This document shows, in pieces, positions 3,078 through 28,370 of a DNA stretch of 64,000 bases. Below the pieces are notes generated by a model. It saw only the letters and a list, made by a program, of their open reading frames with translations. It was not told the origin of the DNA and did not search any database. Every line of letters starts with the position of its first letter. The first letter of the stretch is position 1. The translations under genes were made by a program, and so were the position numbers. Origin of the DNA: Thermincola ferriacetica (GTDB taxonomy: Bacteria > Bacillota > Thermincolia > Thermincolales > Thermincolaceae); contig NZ_LGTE01000002.1 of the NCBI RefSeq assembly GCF_001263415.1, positions 62,001 through 126,000 on the forward strand, given 5' to 3'.

Positions 3078-4253
3078 TTGGCGCAGGCTGATTTTGCGGA
3101 TGCTCAAAAAGAAAAAAAGGCGGTAGCTTTAAGCTCGGTCCTGGCATCCCTGTTTCTGACGGGTGGAAAACTCATTATAGGTTTGCTGACGGGCAGTCTG
3201 GGTATTCTGTCTGAAGCTGCCCATTCAGCCCTGGATTTTGGCGCTGCAGCCATAACTTACTTTGCAGTCAGTATTTCCGATAAACCGGCGGATAAAGAAC
3301 ACCATTACGGTCACGGTAAGGTTGAAAATTTTTCTGCTCTTGTAGAAGCCCTATTACTAATGGTAACATGTCTGTGGATTGTTAAAGAAGCCATAAACAG
3401 GCTAATGATGCCGGAACTCCGGTTGGAGGTAACGGCATGGGGTTTTGGAGTTCTGGTTGTGTCAATTATTATAGATTTCTCCAGGTCCCGGGCGCTGAAA
3501 AAGGCAGCTAAAAAGCACAAAAGCCAGGCTCTGGAAGCCGATGCCCTGCATTTTTCCAGCGACATCCTGAGTTCTCTGGTAGTAATTGTGGGTTTGGTAT
3601 TTGCCAAGTTTGGCTATGAGAAGGCTGACCCCATTGCAGCATTGGTGGTTGCGGTTCTGGTTATTATTGCCAGTTTGCGTTTGGCCAAGGAAACCGTTGA
3701 TGGCCTGCTGGACCGGGCTCCGGAAGGGATAAGGCAGCGGATTGAATCGGATGTAACGGGTGTACCCGGAGTTTTGGGTTTACATAAGATACGGGTACGC
3801 CGGGTGGGCCCTAAAATATTCGGGGATTTGCACGTATTGGTTGACGGGAATAAGACTATCAAAGAAGGGCACCAGTTAGCCGACCGGGTTGAGGATGTAC
3901 TGGCCAAGTATGCTTCCGATGTGGTAATCCATATTGAACCTGTCGAAGAGGTGATGAAGGAAGATATCATCACAGAGGAAGATTTAAAAAAGATACTGGA
4001 GAAAGCGATGGAAAGGCTGGGCGGTAAGTTTGTCAATTACCATGAATTATCCCTCCGGTATGATTACATTGCAGGTCCCGTGGGCGGTGTACACCTGGTT
4101 CTACCCCAAGGTTTGCCTTTAAATGAGGCTCATCATATAGCCCACTCCATTGAAGAGGAAATAATGGCCAATTACCCGGGAACGAAATTTAACGTAAAAA
4201 TAGAGCCCTGCGCCGGGACCTGTACCGAATGCGCCCTGTTTTGCGATGATTAA
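3078..4253 (+). CDS. Cation diffusion facilitator (CDF) metal exporter with Cys-rich tail
   Basis: 391 aa; TTG start at 3078 with AGGGGG 9 bp upstream (the nearby ATG at 3071 runs into a stop). CDF exporters move divalent metals (Zn, Fe, Mn, Co, Cd) out of the cytoplasm by proton antiport. The membrane domain (about residues 12-205) shows paired HxxxD motifs of the metal site: SEAAHSALDFG in TM2 and EADALHFSSD in TM5, plus an HHYGHGK loop. The cytoplasmic domain is longer than in FieF and looks like two ferredoxin-like units. The protein ends in an unusual cluster of four cysteines (about residues 378-388: CAGTCTECALFC), which could bind metal. The specific metal cannot be told. Confidence 0.9.
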   Translation: MAQADFADAQKEKKAVALSSVLASLFLTGGKLIIGLLTGSLGILSEAAHSALDFGAAAITYFAVSISDKPADKEHHYGHGKVENFSALVEALLLMVTCLWIVKEAINRLMMPELRLEVTAWGFGVLVVSIIIDFSRSRALKKAAKKHKSQALEADALHFSSDILSSLVVIVGLVFAKFGYEKADPIAALVVAVLVIIASLRLAKETVDGLLDRAPEGIRQRIESDVTGVPGVLGLHKIRVRRVGPKIFGDLHVLVDGNKTIKEGHQLADRVEDVLAKYASDVVIHIEPVEEVMKEDIITEEDLKKILEKAMERLGGKFVNYHELSLRYDYIAGPVGGVHLVLPQGLPLNEAHHIAHSIEEEIMANYPGTKFNVKIEPCAGTCTECALFCDD

Positions 4254-11657: not shown

Positions 11658-11917
11658 GCGGGGAGCAGGAGTTTAACCTGGATATAGAAAACTTTGAGGA
11701 AGCCATAAACCGTTTGGAGGAAATAGTCAAAACACTGGAAGAAGGCAATATTGGTCTGGATGAAGCTTTGCAGAAGTTTGAAACGGGGGTTCGTTTATCC
11801 AGGTACTGCAATAATAAATTGACAGAAGCTGAAAGAAAAATCAATATGCTGATCAGGGAAAATGATGGGACATTTTCCGTTAAACCTGTAAACCCTACGG
11901 AGGATTTCAATGAATAA
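11654..11917 (+). CDS. xseB: Exodeoxyribonuclease VII small subunit
   Basis: 87 aa helical protein of typical XseB form (FEEAINRLEEIVKTLEEGNIGLDEALQKFETGV). It overlaps xseA by 4 bases and ispA by 8 bases, so the three genes are translationally coupled. The xseA-xseB-ispA order is standard in Firmicutes. Confidence 0.95.
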   Translation: MSGEQEFNLDIENFEEAINRLEEIVKTLEEGNIGLDEALQKFETGVRLSRYCNNKLTEAERKINMLIRENDGTFSVKPVNPTEDFNE

Positions 11918-12809
11918 AAAAGCTTTTTTAAAGGAACTGAAAAGAAAAGTAAATATAATAGAAGATGCATTAAGCCAGTATTTACCTGGTGAAGACGAGT
12001 ACCCGGAAACCATTCACCAATCAATGCGGTATAGTATGCTTGCCGGCGGGAAAAGGCTCCGCCCCGTTTTGGTTTTGGCTGCTGCCGAAGCAGTGGGCGG
12101 AGATGTTAAAAAAGTTATTCCGGCGGCTTGTGCCATTGAAATGATTCATACCTATTCCCTTATTCACGATGACCTTCCGGCTATGGATGATGATAACTAC
12201 CGAAGGGGAAAACCAACTAATCATGTTGTTTATGGGGAGGCTATTGCCATTTTAGCGGGCGATGCTCTCCTTACTTTAGCCTTTGAAGTTTTAAGTTCTT
12301 TGGTGGAGGAGCCCGGTATAGCCCCGCAAAAAGTACTGCGCGTAATCAAAGAAATAAGTTTAGCCGCTGGGTCTAGGGGGTTAATAGGTGGTCAGGTTGT
12401 GGACATCGGGTCCGAAAATCTCGACATTTCAGCAGAGACACTGAAATATATTCATATTAATAAGACCGGCGCCTTATTTAAGGCTGCTCTGAAAACAGGC
12501 GCTATTTTAAGCTCAGCCAGTGAAGAACAAATTACTGCTCTATCCCGGTATGCTCATTTCCTGGGACTGGGTTTCCAGATAACCGATGATATTCTGGACA
12601 TTGAGGGCGATACAGAGAAACTTGGCAAACCGGTAGGCAGTGATATCAAGAAAAAGAAAGCCACTTATCCATCTATTTTCGGTCTACAGGAAGCCAAGCA
12701 AATGGCTCGGGAGGCAGTGGCAGAGAGCCTTATGTCGTTGGAAGGTTTTGATGAAAGGGCAGATTTTCTCAGGGAAATGGCCAGGTATTTGCTGGAGCGG
12801 GATAATTAG
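11910..12809 (+). CDS. ispA: Polyprenyl (farnesyl/geranylgeranyl) diphosphate synthase
   Basis: 299 aa. It condenses isopentenyl diphosphate with allylic diphosphates to give farnesyl or geranylgeranyl diphosphate in the MEP-derived isoprenoid pathway. The first aspartate-rich motif (LIHDDLPAMDDD, about residues 85-96) and the second (QITDDILDIEGD, about 222-233) bind the Mg-diphosphate. GGKRLRPVLVL near residue 45 is also typical. The pathway context is supported by dxs at 14295. The OLE RNA gene lies between the two. Confidence 0.93.
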   Translation: MNKKAFLKELKRKVNIIEDALSQYLPGEDEYPETIHQSMRYSMLAGGKRLRPVLVLAAAEAVGGDVKKVIPAACAIEMIHTYSLIHDDLPAMDDDNYRRGKPTNHVVYGEAIAILAGDALLTLAFEVLSSLVEEPGIAPQKVLRVIKEISLAAGSRGLIGGQVVDIGSENLDISAETLKYIHINKTGALFKAALKTGAILSSASEEQITALSRYAHFLGLGFQITDDILDIEGDTEKLGKPVGSDIKKKKATYPSIFGLQEAKQMAREAVAESLMSLEGFDERADFLREMARYLLERDN

Positions 12810-13001: not shown

Positions 13002-13040
13002 TAGTTCGCTTTTTCAGCAGAGTATTATTAAAAAATTCAA

Positions 13041-13683
13041 TAGGTGGCGCAGTATCCTAGTCAGAATCCCTACTTCGAAGGCGGGGCTAAAAATCCGCTA
13101 AAGGGCACATCGATGAAGTTCCTGGTTTCGGCTGCCGACGCCCAGTCGGGGGTCGGGGCTGGGAGTAAGGAGGAAGGGCGATCTACAATGGCATGTAGGC
13201 GTTGACCCAGCCTCCGTGGAGGCCTGTAATCCGGACGATAAGAGATTCGGGTTACAGGATAAACCTACAAAAGATTCTGTTTTTGAAACAGAGTCGAGTG
13301 TAGCGTAGCCTGCCTTGAGTGGTGTTGGTGGATTACGGGTTATCAGGCGCTTTGGATTCGGGCCCGATTCCAAAGGGCTTGCTGTTTGAAACCTCCACTG
13401 CAAAAGAGGCTAGAAGTAGTTCGTTTCTGTCGAGGAAAACTCCTAGGCTGTTCAACCGGACGGTTGAGGTGCGCTGGGGATTAAAGTATGGACTCAGTGG
13501 TAATCCAGTCCTGTACAGGGCGACCGTACAGATTCGTCATAAAGGGAAACCGCCGACATGGCAACGTGTCGGAGACGGATGGGAAAACCTACTGGACCTA
13601 AGCCATAACATTTACTCAGCGTATTGCCACCTGACCTTACATATCTGGCGCCGGAACATGGACCGCCAGCTTGCTGTATGAGG
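13041..13683 (+). ncRNA. ole: OLE RNA (ornate, large, extremophilic)
   Basis: An approximately 640-nt GC-richer stretch with no credible protein-coding frame lies between ispA and oapA, followed by dxs; this is the characteristic place of OLE RNA. The start (GGTGGCGCAGTATCCTAG), the many perfect short stems (for example GACGCCCAGTCGGGGGTCG, CCTCCGTGGAGG and CCGACATGGCAACGTGTCGG) and the total length fit the family. OLE RNA forms a membrane-associated ribonucleoprotein with OapA and is linked to energy, Mg and cold/ethanol stress responses in Halalkalibacterium. Ends are approximate; the 3' end abuts the oapA ribosome binding site. Identification is by recall of sequence, synteny and size, not by a covariance search. 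Confidence 0.92.
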
Positions 13684-13692
13684 TGAAAATGG

Positions 13693-14289
13693 TTGGGTGA
13701 TAACAGGGCAACCTCTTTGAAATCAGCCTTAATTATTGGGATAGGAACCTTTTTTCTTGCATCTTTTTTCAGCTTGTTTTCCGAATTAGTACTGCCAAAA
13801 ATTCAAATACTTTTACTGTCTTTTCTTTTTTTATTTTTAATTATCTTTCTGGGGATAATCTTTGACATTATTGGGATAGCAGCGGCCGCAGCCAATGAAC
13901 GTCCCTTTCATGCCAAAGCAGCCAAAAAGGTAAAGGGTTCGGTACAGGCTATTAAAATAGTGCGGAATGCTGACAGAGTGGCCAGTTTTTGCAATGACGT
14001 GGTGGGAGATATATGTGGCACGGTAAGCGGGGCTTTGGGCGCAGCCATTGTTTTTCAGGTTGTACTAAACCATCCGGGCTTCAACGAGTCAATTTTATCA
14101 ATAATAATGACGGGGTTGGTTGCTGCTCTGACGGTTAGCGGTAAGGCTCTTGGCAAGAAGAAAGCCATAGCAGAGGCCGACCATATTGTTTTCCGCGTTG
14201 GACAGGCCCTGGCCTGGATGGAAAACGTAATGGGCGTGGATCTGTTTTCCAGGAAAAGTAGCAGGAAGCATAAAGACAGGAGAAGGTGA
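13693..14289 (+). CDS. oapA: OLE-associated protein A
   Basis: 198 aa from TTG 13693 with GAGGTG upstream. It is a membrane protein with about four hydrophobic segments (residues about 10-30, 35-63, 112-132, 137-156), a conserved [30 protein letters not shown] loop (split between helices 2 and 3) and a basic C-terminal tail ([12 protein letters not shown]). OapA binds OLE RNA and brings it to the membrane. The gene follows the RNA by about 10 bp and its stop overlaps the GTG at 14286 ahead of dxs, so RNA, oapA and dxs are probably cotranscribed. OapB and OapC are not seen in the window. Confidence 0.9.
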
Positions 14290-18833: not shown

Positions 18834-19395
18834 AATGATAGCGAGTCCGGTAAAAGTTGCACATTTACTGATGGGCAACAAAATTGGTCCGGGCGCGACA
18901 GTAATCGATGCCACTGTGGGAAACGGGTATGATACATTGTTTTTAGCTGAAGCCGTTGGCGTTGTAGGAAGGGTTTACGGTTTCGACATTCAGGCTGAGG
19001 CTATCGAAAACACAAAGCTTCGCCTGCTAAAAGAAGGGTTACTTGAACGGGTCCTGTTATTTCACGAAGGCCATGAGAATCTCGCCCATAGAGTAACAGA
19101 GAACATCGACGGGATAATGTTTAACCTAGGTTACCTGCCTGGCGGTGACCACCGGGTTATCACGAAACCCAGCACCACCATTATGGCCCTGGAAGGTGCT
19201 TTAAAGCTACTGAAACCGGGGGGGCTAGCTACAGTTGTTGTGTATCCAGGGCATGAAGGCGGCGCCGATGAGGCTCAGGCTTTGGACGAATATGTTGCGC
19301 ACTTGCCGAAAAATACATACAGTTGTGTAAAAATTACTTTTGTAAATCGTTCCCGCAGGAGTCCTTACGTTCTGGCCATAGAAAAAGCTCAATAG
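18826..19395 (+). CDS. YtqB-like SAM-dependent methyltransferase
   Basis: 189 aa; overlaps nadK by 8 bases. A Rossmann methyltransferase with the SAM motif VIDATVGNGYDTLFLAEAVG (about residues 24-43) and an NLGYLPGGD catalytic-type segment (NxGYLPGG). It matches the YtqB/rRNA methylase family in length and order. Recent work links related proteins to tRNA wobble-uridine modification (MnmM); that role would be inference here. Confidence 0.85.
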   Translation: MFEMIASPVKVAHLLMGNKIGPGATVIDATVGNGYDTLFLAEAVGVVGRVYGFDIQAEAIENTKLRLLKEGLLERVLLFHEGHENLAHRVTENIDGIMFNLGYLPGGDHRVITKPSTTIMALEGALKLLKPGGLATVVVYPGHEGGADEAQALDEYVAHLPKNTYSCVKITFVNRSRRSPYVLAIEKAQ

Positions 19396-23599: not shown

Positions 23600-24370
23600 A
23601 TGGTTTTATTCAAAACGATTAACATCGTAATTGCAGATGATAACAGAGAGTTTTGTGAACTGCTGAAGGAGTTCATCTCTCAGGAAGAAGATTTTAACCT
23701 GGTAGGGGTAGCCAATAATGGCGTTGAAGCTGTGGAAATCATAACCCGGGAAAAACCTGATGTTGTTGTGCTGGATATTATCATGCCGCATTTGGACGGA
23801 ATAGGAGTTTTGGAAAAGCTGGCCAGCTCCGGTATGTCGCCGAAACCCAAAGTTATTATGCTTACTGCTTTTGGCCAGGAAACAGTAACCCAAAGGGCTA
23901 TAGAACTGGGAGCCGATTATTACATATTGAAACCCTTTGATTTCTCTGTTTTGGCTACCAGGATTCGTCAGTTGGCAGAAGGCGAAACGGTTCCTACATA
24001 TACACCACCTGTTAAAACGAAAAACCTTGATGTGGCAGTGACAAACATCATTCATGAAATGGGTGTACCGGCCCATATTAAAGGCTACCAGTACCTGAGA
24101 GATGCAATATTGATGGTAGTTGAAGAGGTTAACTTGTTGGGAGCGGTAACTAAAGAGCTGTATCCGATGATAGCGCAGAAATACTCTACTACACCCAGCA
24201 GGGTGGAAAGGGCGATCCGCCACGCTATAGAATTGGCTTGGGACCGGGGGAACGTGGAAATGATGAATAGGTTCTTCGGGTACACAATCAACCTTGAACG
24301 CGGAAAACCCACAAATTCTGAATTTATAGCCATGGTAGCAGACAAGCTGCGTATTAGCAAAGTGAGTTAA
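23600..24370 (+). CDS. spo0A: Sporulation master regulator Spo0A
   Basis: 256 aa, ATG 23600 with GGAGGG at 23582-23587. Response-regulator receiver domain: acidic pocket Asp13/Asp14, phosphoacceptor Asp59 ([13 protein letters not shown]), Thr and Lys in [10 protein letters not shown] and ILKPFD. The C-terminal Spo0A DNA-binding domain (about residues 145-256) has the recognition-helix region [23 protein letters not shown]. Phosphorylated Spo0A starts sporulation. A probable target is the spoIIA promoter at 58623-58688 in this window. The spoIVB-spo0A order is that of Bacillus and Clostridia. Confidence 0.97.
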
Positions 24371-24379
24371 TGACTCGGG

Positions 24380-24406
24380 AACCTGACCGTAAAGGTCAGG
24401 TTTTTC
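24380..24406 (+). terminator. Intrinsic terminator after spo0A
   Basis: Stem AACCTGACC / GGTCAGGTT with a 5-base loop, followed by TTTCC. The following 250 bp to steA are AT-rich and show nothing else I can name. Confidence 0.8.
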
Positions 24407-24656
24407 CTTGATTACAATTAATTATCTCCGAAAATCTTGTTAAATCCGGTTATTTCTTTTTAAATTATGGCAAAACTAATTATAAATGTATAACTACATA
24501 ATCATATTTAATAAGCGCTAAGACTTGCAGCCTATTGCTGACTTGCTAGCCGTCAATAAATGGTGTAAAATTAAACATTAGGAATTTAAAAGATGGAAAT
24601 TTGCACGCAAAATTATAAACATCAGTTACCATATTAATTTGCGGGAGCTGAATATT

Positions 24657-25781
24657 ATGTTGTCTGTCAAGGGCATAGCCCGTGTTGATAAAAAGACCAA
24701 GCATCTCGTGCAGAGACTTGAACCTGGCAACATTGCGATAATAAATCACCAGGACCTGGACGAAGTTTGTGCGGAAGCTTTGGCAAAAGCAAAAGTTAAA
24801 ATGGTGGTTAATGCCGCCCAGTCAATCAGCGGCAAATACCCTAACCAAGGGCCGATGGTACTGGCGGAAGCAGGTATTTTAATTCTTGATAATGTCGGAG
24901 AAGAAGTGATGGCCCAGGTAGAAGAGGGAGCGGAGGTGGAAATTTCCGGCAACAGGATTAGGGCTGCCAACGGTTGGGTAGGCAGCGGGACCTTGCTGAC
25001 TAAAGATGAAATTGCCCGGAAGATGGAAGAAACCAAAAAGAATTTAGGTTCTGTTTTAAGCGATTTTGTGCAAAATACTTTAGAATGGGCACAGCAGGAG
25101 CAGCAACTGGTCCTTGGTAAATTACCCATACCTGAGACAACAGTGGATTTTACCGGGCGTCATACTTTAATAGTGGTTAGAGGACAAAATTATAAGGAAG
25201 ATCTTCTGGCGATAAAATCTTATATAGAAGAAGTCAGACCCGTTTTAATCGGGGTAGACGGCGGCGCTGACGCTCTACGTGAGTTTGGCTATTGTCCGGA
25301 TATCATAATAGGTGATATGGACAGCATTAGCGACGATACATTACGATGCGGTGCCGAAATAATTGTCCATGCTTACCCTGATGGTAGAGCGCCTGGATTG
25401 GCCCGTGTACAGAAACTGGGGTTGGATGCGAAAACATTTCCGGCGCCCGGGACCAGCGAAGATATTGCTATGTTGCTGGCTTACGAGAAAGGAACGGAAC
25501 TTATCGTTGCCGTGGGCACCCATTCTAACATGATTGATTTTTTGGAAAAAGGAAGAAAAGGGATGGCCAGTACCTTTTTGGTAAGATTAAAAGTAGGGTC
25601 TATTCTTGTTGATGCCCGCGGTGTAAACAAGCTTTACCGGCGCAGCATCAAGTTTAAGCATTTGGCTTTTATAGTGCTGGCGGCGCTGATTCCCTTTGCT
25701 GTTGTGGCTGTTATTTCGCCTACGACCAGCCAGTTTATTAGACTGGTATGGATTAAAATGAGATTGGTATTTGGGCTTTAG
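24657..25781 (+). CDS. steA: SteA-like cytokinetic-ring protein (thiamine pyrophosphokinase-like fold)
   Basis: 374 aa from ATG 24657 (GGGAG upstream). It resembles the putative cytokinetic ring protein SteA, known from Corynebacterium, where SteA and SteB act together at the septum. Residues about 170-300 form a thiamine pyrophosphokinase-like domain (VDGGADALREFGYCPDIIIGDMDSISDD), though catalysis is doubtful. A C-terminal transmembrane helix (LAFIVLAALIPFAVVAVIS, about 333-352) anchors it. It heads a tight operon: steB follows after 11 bp. Confidence 0.82.
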   Translation: MLSVKGIARVDKKTKHLVQRLEPGNIAIINHQDLDEVCAEALAKAKVKMVVNAAQSISGKYPNQGPMVLAEAGILILDNVGEEVMAQVEEGAEVEISGNRIRAANGWVGSGTLLTKDEIARKMEETKKNLGSVLSDFVQNTLEWAQQEQQLVLGKLPIPETTVDFTGRHTLIVVRGQNYKEDLLAIKSYIEEVRPVLIGVDGGADALREFGYCPDIIIGDMDSISDDTLRCGAEIIVHAYPDGRAPGLARVQKLGLDAKTFPAPGTSEDIAMLLAYEKGTELIVAVGTHSNMIDFLEKGRKGMASTFLVRLKVGSILVDARGVNKLYRRSIKFKHLAFIVLAALIPFAVVAVISPTTSQFIRLVWIKMRLVFGL

Positions 25782-25792
25782 GAGGATTCCCG

Positions 25793-26674
25793 ATGATTAT
25801 AGATTTAAAGTATCATATAGCTTCGCTGGTAGCAGTATTTTTAGCCTTAGGCATAGGGATTTTGATAGGGAACAACTTTTCCGCTGTGGGTAACGAAATT
25901 ATGGTACAGCAGCAGAAACAGATGATTGATAAATTGGAAAGGGATTTTGACCAGATTCGTGACGAGAATAAAAAAGTGCAACATCAGATTTCGGAATTTA
26001 AGAATGCCATCAACGTACATAAACAGTTTGAAAAGCAAATTGTGCCCCAGTTAGTTTATGGTAAACTGCAGGGATATAACATTGCCATCATTGAGACCAA
26101 TAACTACGGTTTTCATGAAGACTGGATGAATACTTTAAAAGCGGCCGGCGCAAATATTACTTCAATCACCACGGTTCTTGGCGGTTTTGACCTTAGTGAT
26201 TCTAAAATAAGGGAAAAGATTGCCACCAAGTTACTGCTTACTTCCAAGGAGGAGGATGACCTGACGAGGGCTATAGCTCAGGAAATCAACGTAGCTGTCA
26301 TGACCGGCCAGAACCTGGAAAACCTGCAGTTTTTAGAGGGGCTTGGTTTTCTGAAGAAAGTCGGTAATTATGGCACTCCTGTTAACGCTGTCATAGTAGT
26401 TGGTGGCAGCCAGGACGAAAAAACCGTGAAGGTAAAAAACCTGGATATTCCCATAATGAAATATTTCTTGGACCACAATATTCCCGTATATGGAGTGGAA
26501 CATACAGATGTGGAAATTTCATATATGAAGGAATACCAAAAGCTTAAAGTTGCCACTATTGACAATGTGGATATGGTTCCCGGGCAGGTAGCTCTAATCA
26601 GGGCTATATCAGGGTATCCCGGGGACTACGGGGTGAAGACAACAGCCAAGGAGTTATTACCGGCTTTACATTAG
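25793..26674 (+). CDS. steB: SteB / MctB-type membrane protein
   Basis: 293 aa with AGGAGG-type RBS. It has one N-terminal membrane helix (about residues 8-27, IASLVAVFLALGIGILIG), then a coiled coil (about 40-90) and an alpha/beta extracytoplasmic domain. This is the DUF3186 family, annotated as copper transporter MctB in Mycobacterium and SteB in Corynebacterium. Pairing with steA points to the SteB-like role; no copper-binding motif is seen. SteA and SteB are expected to interact at the membrane. Confidence 0.8.
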   Translation: MIIDLKYHIASLVAVFLALGIGILIGNNFSAVGNEIMVQQQKQMIDKLERDFDQIRDENKKVQHQISEFKNAINVHKQFEKQIVPQLVYGKLQGYNIAIIETNNYGFHEDWMNTLKAAGANITSITTVLGGFDLSDSKIREKIATKLLLTSKEEDDLTRAIAQEINVAVMTGQNLENLQFLEGLGFLKKVGNYGTPVNAVIVVGGSQDEKTVKVKNLDIPIMKYFLDHNIPVYGVEHTDVEISYMKEYQKLKVATIDNVDMVPGQVALIRAISGYPGDYGVKTTAKELLPALH

Positions 26675-26685
26675 GAGTGATTTGA

Positions 26686-27360
26686 TTGAGGAAAAAAGTT
26701 AGCGTATTAATTCCGGCTTATAATGAAGCAAAATACATCTTTCAAACAGTAGCGGCAGTTAAGAAAATACCGGAAGTGGACGAGGTTTTTGTTATTGATG
26801 ATGCTTCGACTGATAATACCTCGGAGCTGGCCAAAAAAGCCGGCGCCGAGGTTTTGACCCTTCGAGAGAATCACGGTAAAGGGGGCGCCCTCAACAAAGG
26901 GATAGCTTTGGCCACAGGAGATGTAATTGCCCTAATTGACGGGGACGTTGGGGAAACAGCATCGGAAGTGCGCAAGCTCATCATGCCCGTAATTGAAGGA
27001 AAGGCCGATATGACTATTGCCAGGTTTCCCAAGGCCAAGAAAAAGGGCGGTTTTGGCCTGGTTAAAGGTTTGGCCCGAAATGGCATAAAATTATTGACGG
27101 GTTTGGAAATGGCAGCGCCTTTATCAGGACAACGGGCTATGACCCGTGAGGTTATCAGGGCAATTGGCCGCTTTTCTTCCGGATACGGGGTAGAAGTTGG
27201 TCTAACTATCGATATAGCCAGAAAGGGCTATAAAATTTTGGAAGTAGATGTAAATATGACTCATGCCGAAACAGGGCGAGATCTGCGCGGTTTTATGCAC
27301 CGGGGGAAACAGTTTATGCATGTATCGAAAGTACTGGCCCGCCGGTTGATAATGAGGTGA
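26686..27360 (+). CDS. Family 2 glycosyltransferase
   Basis: 224 aa from TTG 26686 (TAGGAGTG upstream). GT-A fold glycosyltransferase like dolichyl-phosphate sugar synthases: VSVLIPAYNEA at the N-terminus, VIDDASTDNT, ENHGKGGALNKG, and IDGDVG in the DxD position. A C-terminal HRGKQFMHVSK segment follows. No transmembrane helix. It probably transfers a nucleotide-activated sugar to a polyprenyl-phosphate or cell-surface acceptor made by the next gene. Donor and product are unknown. Confidence 0.85.
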   Translation: MRKKVSVLIPAYNEAKYIFQTVAAVKKIPEVDEVFVIDDASTDNTSELAKKAGAEVLTLRENHGKGGALNKGIALATGDVIALIDGDVGETASEVRKLIMPVIEGKADMTIARFPKAKKKGGFGLVKGLARNGIKLLTGLEMAAPLSGQRAMTREVIRAIGRFSSGYGVEVGLTIDIARKGYKILEVDVNMTHAETGRDLRGFMHRGKQFMHVSKVLARRLIMR

Positions 27361-27363
27361 AAA

Positions 27364-28203
27364 ATGGTTATCTATGGCATAATTGTAATTAGTCTGGCTT
27401 ATATGGTTACATATTCCACAGTTCCCGTAATCGGAAAAATGCTGGCCAAGGCCGATTTCGTCCGGCCCAATTTCCGGGGAGATATGATTCCGCTTGGAGT
27501 TGGTATCGTTTTTGCGCTGGCTCTATTAGTCACCGGTTCAGTCTGGATTTTATTGCAGCCGGACCAGGCCAGGAATACTCTACTTTTCTTATTCGCCGCT
27601 TTTAGTATGGCTTTGCTGGGATTGGTAGATGATGTTTTCGGATCACGGGAAGCTTCAGGGCTAAAAGGTCATTTGAAAAAACTGCTGGTCGAAGGGGAAT
27701 TGACAACAGGGGCTCTTAAAGCTCTGGCCGGCGGCATGGTTTCTCTTTTGATCAGCCTAGCACTGATAAAAATTGAAAAGATACAGGACATCCTGCTGGT
27801 GCTGCTTAACACTTTCATAATTGCCCTTTCTGCCAATGCTATAAACCTGCTCGATTTGCGACCGGGCCGGGCTATTAAAGGGTACTTGCTATTGGCTGCC
27901 TTTTTGGTGGCTTTTGGCTATAACCAAGAGGAAGTTTGGTTGCTGGGCATTCTCACAGGTTCTGTTTTGGCTTACCTGCCCTTTGACCTGAAAGCACAAA
28001 CCATGATGGGCGATACTGGTTCCAATGTATTGGGGATATCTGTGGGTCTCCTGGCGGTACTTGTTTTACCCCTTATTTCAAAGTTGGTATACTTTGGTTT
28101 GCTTGTATTGTTTCATTTATACACTGAGAAGTTTTCTCTCACCAGGACTATTGAAAACAACCGGGTTTTAAAGTTTATTGACATGATCGGCAGGGAAAAG
28201 TAG
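27364..28203 (+). CDS. MraY/WecA-like polyprenyl-phosphate phosphotransferase homologue
   Basis: 279 aa, 8-9 hydrophobic segments. It belongs to glycosyltransferase family 4 (MraY/WecA/TagO), which attaches phospho-sugars to undecaprenyl phosphate. The aspartate motif LLGLVDDVFGSRE (about residues 80-92), NAINLLDLRPGRAIKG (about 158-173) and MMGDTGSNVLG (about 216-226) are recognisable. It is shorter than MraY, so a dedicated role outside main peptidoglycan synthesis is likely. Only 3 bp separate it from the GT2 gene. Confidence 0.82.
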   Translation: MVIYGIIVISLAYMVTYSTVPVIGKMLAKADFVRPNFRGDMIPLGVGIVFALALLVTGSVWILLQPDQARNTLLFLFAAFSMALLGLVDDVFGSREASGLKGHLKKLLVEGELTTGALKALAGGMVSLLISLALIKIEKIQDILLVLLNTFIIALSANAINLLDLRPGRAIKGYLLLAAFLVAFGYNQEEVWLLGILTGSVLAYLPFDLKAQTMMGDTGSNVLGISVGLLAVLVLPLISKLVYFGLLVLFHLYTEKFSLTRTIENNRVLKFIDMIGREK

Positions 28204-28292
28204 AGAATTTAGCAAGCTGAGAAAAACTTTCTCCGGCTGCGTTGTGCGTTTGCCGCAATCCTCAACGTACCTATGAGAACACCCTTTTTCAG

Positions 28293-28370
28293 GAGAGGTG
28301 TTTAACGGTCTAAAACTAATTGCCACTTAGTTTTGTTGGCAGTTTTGGCCTTGTTAAACACCTCTCTTAT
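28293..28370 (+). terminator. Long structured terminator-like element
   Basis: Perfect 14-bp outer stem GAGAGGTGTTTAAC / GTTAAACACCTCTC (28293-28306, 28353-28366) encloses an inner 8-bp hairpin (AAAACTAA/TTAGTTTT). It is followed by TTATTT. It ends the steAB cluster; its size is unusual for a simple terminator. Confidence 0.6.

Follow-up and report, generated by a model that had tools for sequence, protein, structure and literature searches.

We analyzed four consecutive plus-strand genes at positions 24657 to 28203 of a 64,000-nucleotide stretch of the Thermincola ferriacetica genome (contig NZ_LGTE01000002.1, positions 62,001 to 126,000; hereafter "the window"), which had been predicted from the sequence to form a cluster directly behind spo0A encoding SteA, SteB, a soluble glycosyltransferase (GT2) and a short enzyme of the MraY/WecA superfamily (GT4). 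An open reading frame check of the window placed steA at 24657..25781 (with a possible alternative TTG start at 24639), steB at 25793..26674, the GT2 gene at 26686..27360 and the GT4 gene at 27364..28203, with intergenic gaps of 11 base pairs (bp; steA-steB), 11 bp (steB-GT2) and 3 bp (GT2-GT4). Both this tight coupling and the four gene identities, all supported by profile scores above the respective cut-offs, agree with the original prediction.

The steA product scored 547.5 bits against the SteA profile NF040608 (cut-off 150; residues 4-371) and also matched PF04263, the SteA-like_C domain PF12555 at its C-terminus (63.7 bits) and the M. tuberculosis SteA (MtSteA) structure 9hmy (1e-78). 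It is predicted to be a cytoplasmic protein with a nucleotide pocket like those of thiamine pyrophosphokinase (TPK) and the archaeal dihydropterin pyrophosphokinase MptE, and to be anchored to the membrane at its C-terminus. The pocket motifs VDGGADA, GDMDS, HAYPDGRAPG and GTSED are intact, and the TPK catalytic profile aligns to the C-terminal domain across the first two of these. The best non-SteA profile match was MptE (4e-7), followed weakly by TPK through GDMDS. Likeness to these enzymes is thus confined to the pocket, where DGGAD and GDMDS align, while the rest of the TPK profile is unmatched and SteA adds an N-terminal domain as well as the membrane anchor. SteB, which matched the SteB/MctB profile PF11382 with 151.7 bits (gathering threshold 25.6; residues 2-290), has the build of the MctB family, i.e., an N-terminal transmembrane helix, a coiled coil and an extracytoplasmic globular domain; its hydrophobic N-terminus is conserved and the family profile matches the solved MctB/SteB chains 9m9z, 9hle and 8au6. 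SteB is shortened to approx. 200 amino acids (aa) in several Bacillota lineages (loci L056, L080, L083 and L163), where most of the extracytoplasmic domain is missing.

GT4 is a short (279 aa) polytopic homologue of polyprenyl-phosphate sugar-phosphate transferases that matched the PNPT superfamily profile PF00953 (48.3 bits; cut-off 27). Its AF2 model (pLDDT 93.4) has a fold like those of MraY and DPAGT1 (Foldseek TM 0.58-0.70; E 4e-7 for MraY). GT4 carries the motifs DD, GLKGH, N..N..DLRPGR and GDTG, and D89, D90, N158, N161, D164, P167-G168-R169 and G216-D217 are invariant in the alignment. It shares the fold and the DD and GDxG motifs with MraY, WecA, TagO and DPAGT1, but differs from them in its short length, in the absence of the HxH loop (found in none of 165 GT4 relatives) and in the replacement of the usual DGxDGL by NxxN..D(L/V)RPGR; DxRPGR was present in 151 of the 165 relatives. 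GT4 did not reach the MraY equivalog cut-off (TIGR00445; 28.3 against 192.05), and with its differing score and motifs, and two further PF00953 genes in the genome, it was rejected as an ordinary MraY or WecA. GT2 (PF00535, 101.7 bits; cut-off 23.3) is a soluble GT-A fold glycosyltransferase without a transmembrane domain. Residues D39, D85 and D87 (DxD, 85-87) are invariant in aligned relatives, and a DxD motif was found in 156 of 157 relatives. The AF2 model (pLDDT 94.5) has GpgS/MpgS as its nearest solved folds, followed by ArnC and dolichol-phosphate mannose synthase, with which GT2 shares the GT-A fold and the DxD motif. GT2 differs from these enzymes in that it falls below all NCBIfam equivalog cut-offs shown (for GpgS, NF010496, 102 against 262, and this assignment was rejected), is shorter than GpgS and has family motifs of its own (LSGQR and HRG(K/R)Q). 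As the catalytic residues are invariant among aligned relatives, GT4 and GT2 both look like active enzymes. This agrees with the prediction, in which SteAB is coupled to a GT2 and to a homologue of polyprenyl-phosphate sugar-phosphate transferases.

In C. glutamicum, SteA and SteB assemble into a complex at the septum (PMC6705760). The M. tuberculosis pair binds the hydrolase RipA and positions it (PMC12977500); an alternative proposed in a preprint ties SteA (TapA) to the MtrAB system (PMC12338722). The SteAB-RipA system of Mycobacteriales (C. glutamicum cgp_1603-1604; M. tuberculosis Rv1697-Rv1698) and the window share the SteA and MctB/SteB families, the steA-steB order and the recN/nadK/tlyA surroundings. 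The studied Mycobacteriales SteA proteins, however, have an altered pocket motif and no adjacent GT4, whereas the window SteA has an intact motif and two enzymes attached. The original prediction had regarded the four-gene combination as undescribed. This held in part, as steAB had already been noted to follow spo0A in a "restricted subset of Bacillota" and a link to sporulation suggested (PMC12977500), but the text of that paper has no mention of a glycosyltransferase or MraY-like gene, and a literature search on the clostridial genes, SteA and MctB found no published description of the two enzymes and their link to SteA.

SteA is not rare in the phylum of the window, as it scored above the cut-off in 241 of 399 genomes. 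The neighborhoods of 98 steA loci, drawn from 84 Bacillota families, were examined, with steA located by six-frame profile searches; three loci were cut by contig ends, leaving 95 that could be assessed. Rather than being scattered among relatives, all four genes occurred in order at 80 of these loci. GT4 was found beside steA at all 95 loci, GT2 at 91 and SteB at 84; in the 11 loci without steB, steA runs directly into GT2, and 4 loci lack GT2. This grouping is far beyond chance. Mapped on the steA tree, the presence of steB changed twice, that of GT2 once and that of GT4 never, while at least 15 changes were counted for adjacency to spo0A. Conversely, GT4 was absent from 79 of 80 SteA-negative Bacillota genomes, the lone match (G134) lying near a contig start. 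In the 54 loci where no gene was missing, pairwise distances were correlated within the module (r 0.61-0.70) to a greater extent than between module genes and spo0A (0.27-0.30), spoIVB (0.39-0.46) or recN (0.35-0.42), all of these values resting on raw identities from which shared phylogeny was not removed. The commonest gene soon 3' of GT4 in Bacillota (L079 and approx. 29 further loci) is of the DUF3866 type (PF12982), a possible further partner.

The association extends to other phyla. Among 150 Actinomycetota genomes, 64 encode both SteA and GT4, 6 SteA only, 2 GT4 only and 78 neither. Wherever SteA and GT4 were on the same contig, GT4 was downstream on the same strand (59 of 59 pairs), in 58 of these within 10 kb. 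In two of the six SteA-only genomes (L283 and L284) steA lies at a contig end; the other four are Mycobacteriales-like, with SteA 59-91% identical to MtSteA. SteA and GT4 are the most faithful pair of the conserved unit. The complete four-gene order is found in the Actinobacteria L291, L296 and L297, and, within a further set of 80 named loci, Geodermatophilus, Blastococcus and Actinomadura have the order tlyA-nadK-recN-steA-steB-GT4, and both an Armatimonadetes metagenome-assembled genome and Tumebacillus carry all four genes.

One possible explanation for this conservation could be passive synteny, i.e., that SteA and the enzymes have long been neighbors around tlyA-nadK-recN without being functionally connected. 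The neighborhood as a whole is indeed old, as recN and nadK are also kept near steA in both phyla. However, SteA and GT4 co-occur genome-wide and not merely locally, by which simple synteny is rejected, the divergence correlation within the module is far above that with recN or spo0A, and the module remains whole where spo0A or recN has moved off. Passive synteny would also leave the decay of the SteA motif with GT4 loss (see below) unaccounted for, and overall we consider it very improbable.

GDMDS is kept in 165 of 166 Bacillota-side SteA loci, the remaining one reading GDFDS, and GD(M/F)DS is present in all 24 actinobacterial loci that bear GT4. It is altered in MtSteA (GDPDQ) and in C. glutamicum SteA (CgSteA; GNPTG). 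In one actinobacterial order, represented by 40 loci, the motif was intact in 19 of 19 loci with GT4 and altered, in some cases by a single change (e.g., GDMDA), in 21 of 21 loci without GT4 within 8 kb. When the motif columns were removed before tree building (80 scored rows), GT4 and the SteA motif were seen to have been lost together on two independent occasions. The association between motif and GT4 is hence perfect, but it is based on two events. The SteAB complexes that have been studied belong to a lineage that has no GT4 at the locus and whose SteA acidic motif has decayed.

Our best explanation of these data, to which we give about an even chance of being correct, is that the four genes form an ancient, co-inherited membrane module in which SteA, GT4 and GT2 make a polyprenyl-linked sugar, with SteA handling its nucleotide. 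GT4 would move a sugar-1-phosphate from a nucleotide sugar onto polyprenyl phosphate, and GT2 would add or deliver a second sugar at the cytoplasmic face. SteA would act as a membrane-anchored nucleotide-handling partner that senses or processes a nucleotide or nucleotide sugar through its TPK-like pocket, and SteB, where present, may pass the state of SteA to the cell exterior, in the way suggested for RipA of Mycobacteriales. Mycobacteriaceae-type genomes would have lost GT4 and GT2, and their SteA acidic motif would have decayed, while SteAB stayed as a hydrolase regulator. The published stabilization of CgSteA by GDP or UDP, and not by ADP or triphosphates (PMC12977500), favors a nucleotide-handling role.

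Alternatively, SteA could be not a sensor but an enzyme in its own right, with the TPK/MptE fold serving a pyrophosphokinase or transferase activity whose product is used by GT4 or GT2. The acidic motif is intact in all sampled lineages bearing GT4, and both the profile matches to MptE and, weakly, TPK and the published structural match of SteA to TPK and the sialyltransferase CstII (PMC12977500) are consistent with catalysis. On the other hand, no SteA activity has been reported, the GDP/UDP stabilization data were obtained with a motif-altered SteA, and a tight sensor would likewise be conserved; we thus regard an enzymatic SteA as possible but doubtful. Extended further, and put forward here as a tentative conjecture, intact SteA could be a catalytic member of the TPK/MptE fold in an undescribed polyprenyl-sugar pathway with GT4 and GT2 that predates the split of Bacillota and Actinomycetota, and the SteA of Mycobacterium and Corynebacterium could be a leftover pseudo-enzyme, repurposed as a cell-wall hydrolase regulator after loss of the pathway.

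Several observations weigh against a SteA-GT4-GT2 module that makes a polyprenyl-linked sugar. In two Actinobacteria genomes of 8-10 Mb (L285 and L286), which no longer have SteA and SteB, GT4 is kept 104-125 bp 3' of recN, and GT4 can therefore persist by itself. Many Actinobacteria, as well as the four Bacillota loci, lack GT2 near GT4, a flippase, polymerase or ligase was not seen as a constant neighbor of the module, and our literature search found no biochemical data for these GT4 or GT2 groups. The divergence correlation may share part of its signal with phylogeny, and the independent joint losses, two in number, are too few for a sign test to attain significance. Moreover, the absence of GT4 from the 21 motif-altered loci was established within 8 kb, and a genome-wide check covered four other genomes of the motif-altered type.

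If the ancestral partner of SteA was a polyprenyl-sugar enzyme, the ligands to be considered for the pocket of SteA, which like SteB is a proposed antibiotic target in M. tuberculosis, would shorten to a nucleotide sugar, UMP/UDP or a lipid phosphate, and motif-intact SteA proteins would be the right ones to assay. It would also bring to light an envelope pathway that is widespread in Clostridia and Actinobacteria.

In the window, the genes 5' of the module are dxs, tlyA, nadK, a methyltransferase gene, argR, recN, spoIVB and spo0A. The last of these (23600-24370; TIGR02875, 420.6 bits) has its stop 286 bp 5' of steA and is followed on the plus strand by a terminator-like hairpin with a T-run (24381..24407; -17.9 kcal/mol, z -4.0), recognized by reading and folding of the sequence, although it escapes a strict scan for consensus terminators. 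As this hairpin and T-run would close spo0A, and as a similar hairpin lies directly 3' of spo0A in L038, a relative of the same order, steA most likely opens a transcription unit of its own, apart from spo0A. A strong plus-strand hairpin (28291..28368; -37.9 kcal/mol, z -8.2; arms GAGAGGTGTTTAAC), present as a single copy in the window, lies between GT4 and a sigma-54 regulator gene and is the probable end of the operon.

From its position behind spo0A, the cluster had been proposed to belong to the spo0A program and to produce a glycan used at the division or sporulation septum. The septal location of SteAB in Corynebacterium (PMC6705760) fits such a role, and the suggested phyletic profile gave a mixed answer. 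Spo0A is encoded in 237 of 241 SteA-positive as compared to 108 of 158 SteA-negative Bacillota (odds ratio 27), and SpoIVA was found in 75 of 80 SteA-positive genomes tested; however, 108 Spo0A-positive genomes thus lack SteA, and the enrichment for Spo0A, while real, is confounded by phylogeny. Nor does the locus itself favor a place in the spo0A program, as steA appears to stand in its own unit behind a terminator, the interval from spo0A to steA has no exact Spo0A box TGTCGAA (the closest copies are at 18982 and 31583; degenerate boxes are not excluded by this search), and the repeated changes in spo0A adjacency contrast with the constancy of GT4 adjacency. At the loci of Actinobacteria and of Peptostreptococcus, the module also stands without spo0A; in Peptostreptococcus, recN is located 23-25 bp 5' of an intact module with no spoIVB-spo0A between, and SpoIVA was not found in the genome. 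Because of these exceptions, the module does not need spo0A; its distribution reaches beyond spore formers and spo0A carriers, contrary to what would be expected of a Spo0A-dependent sporulation gene. We thus discount the position behind spo0A as an indication of a use in sporulation and consider a septal or sporulation glycan made under spo0A unlikely. In the window as a whole, TGTCGAA occurs 13 times on both strands, as compared to 4.7 expected from shuffled sequences.

The window contains further features of interest. An OLE RNA (RF01071, 520.5 bits) is located at 13028-13646, flanked by dxs and by a polyprenyl synthetase gene (11910-12809), and is followed by a gene of 198 aa (13693-14289) in the usual position of OapA. 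A NiCo riboswitch (RF02683; 2907-2986) lies just 5' of a cation-efflux-like gene at 3078, and a gene at 968-2845 encodes a multihaem cytochrome with Ig-like domains that is partly similar to outer-membrane cytochromes.

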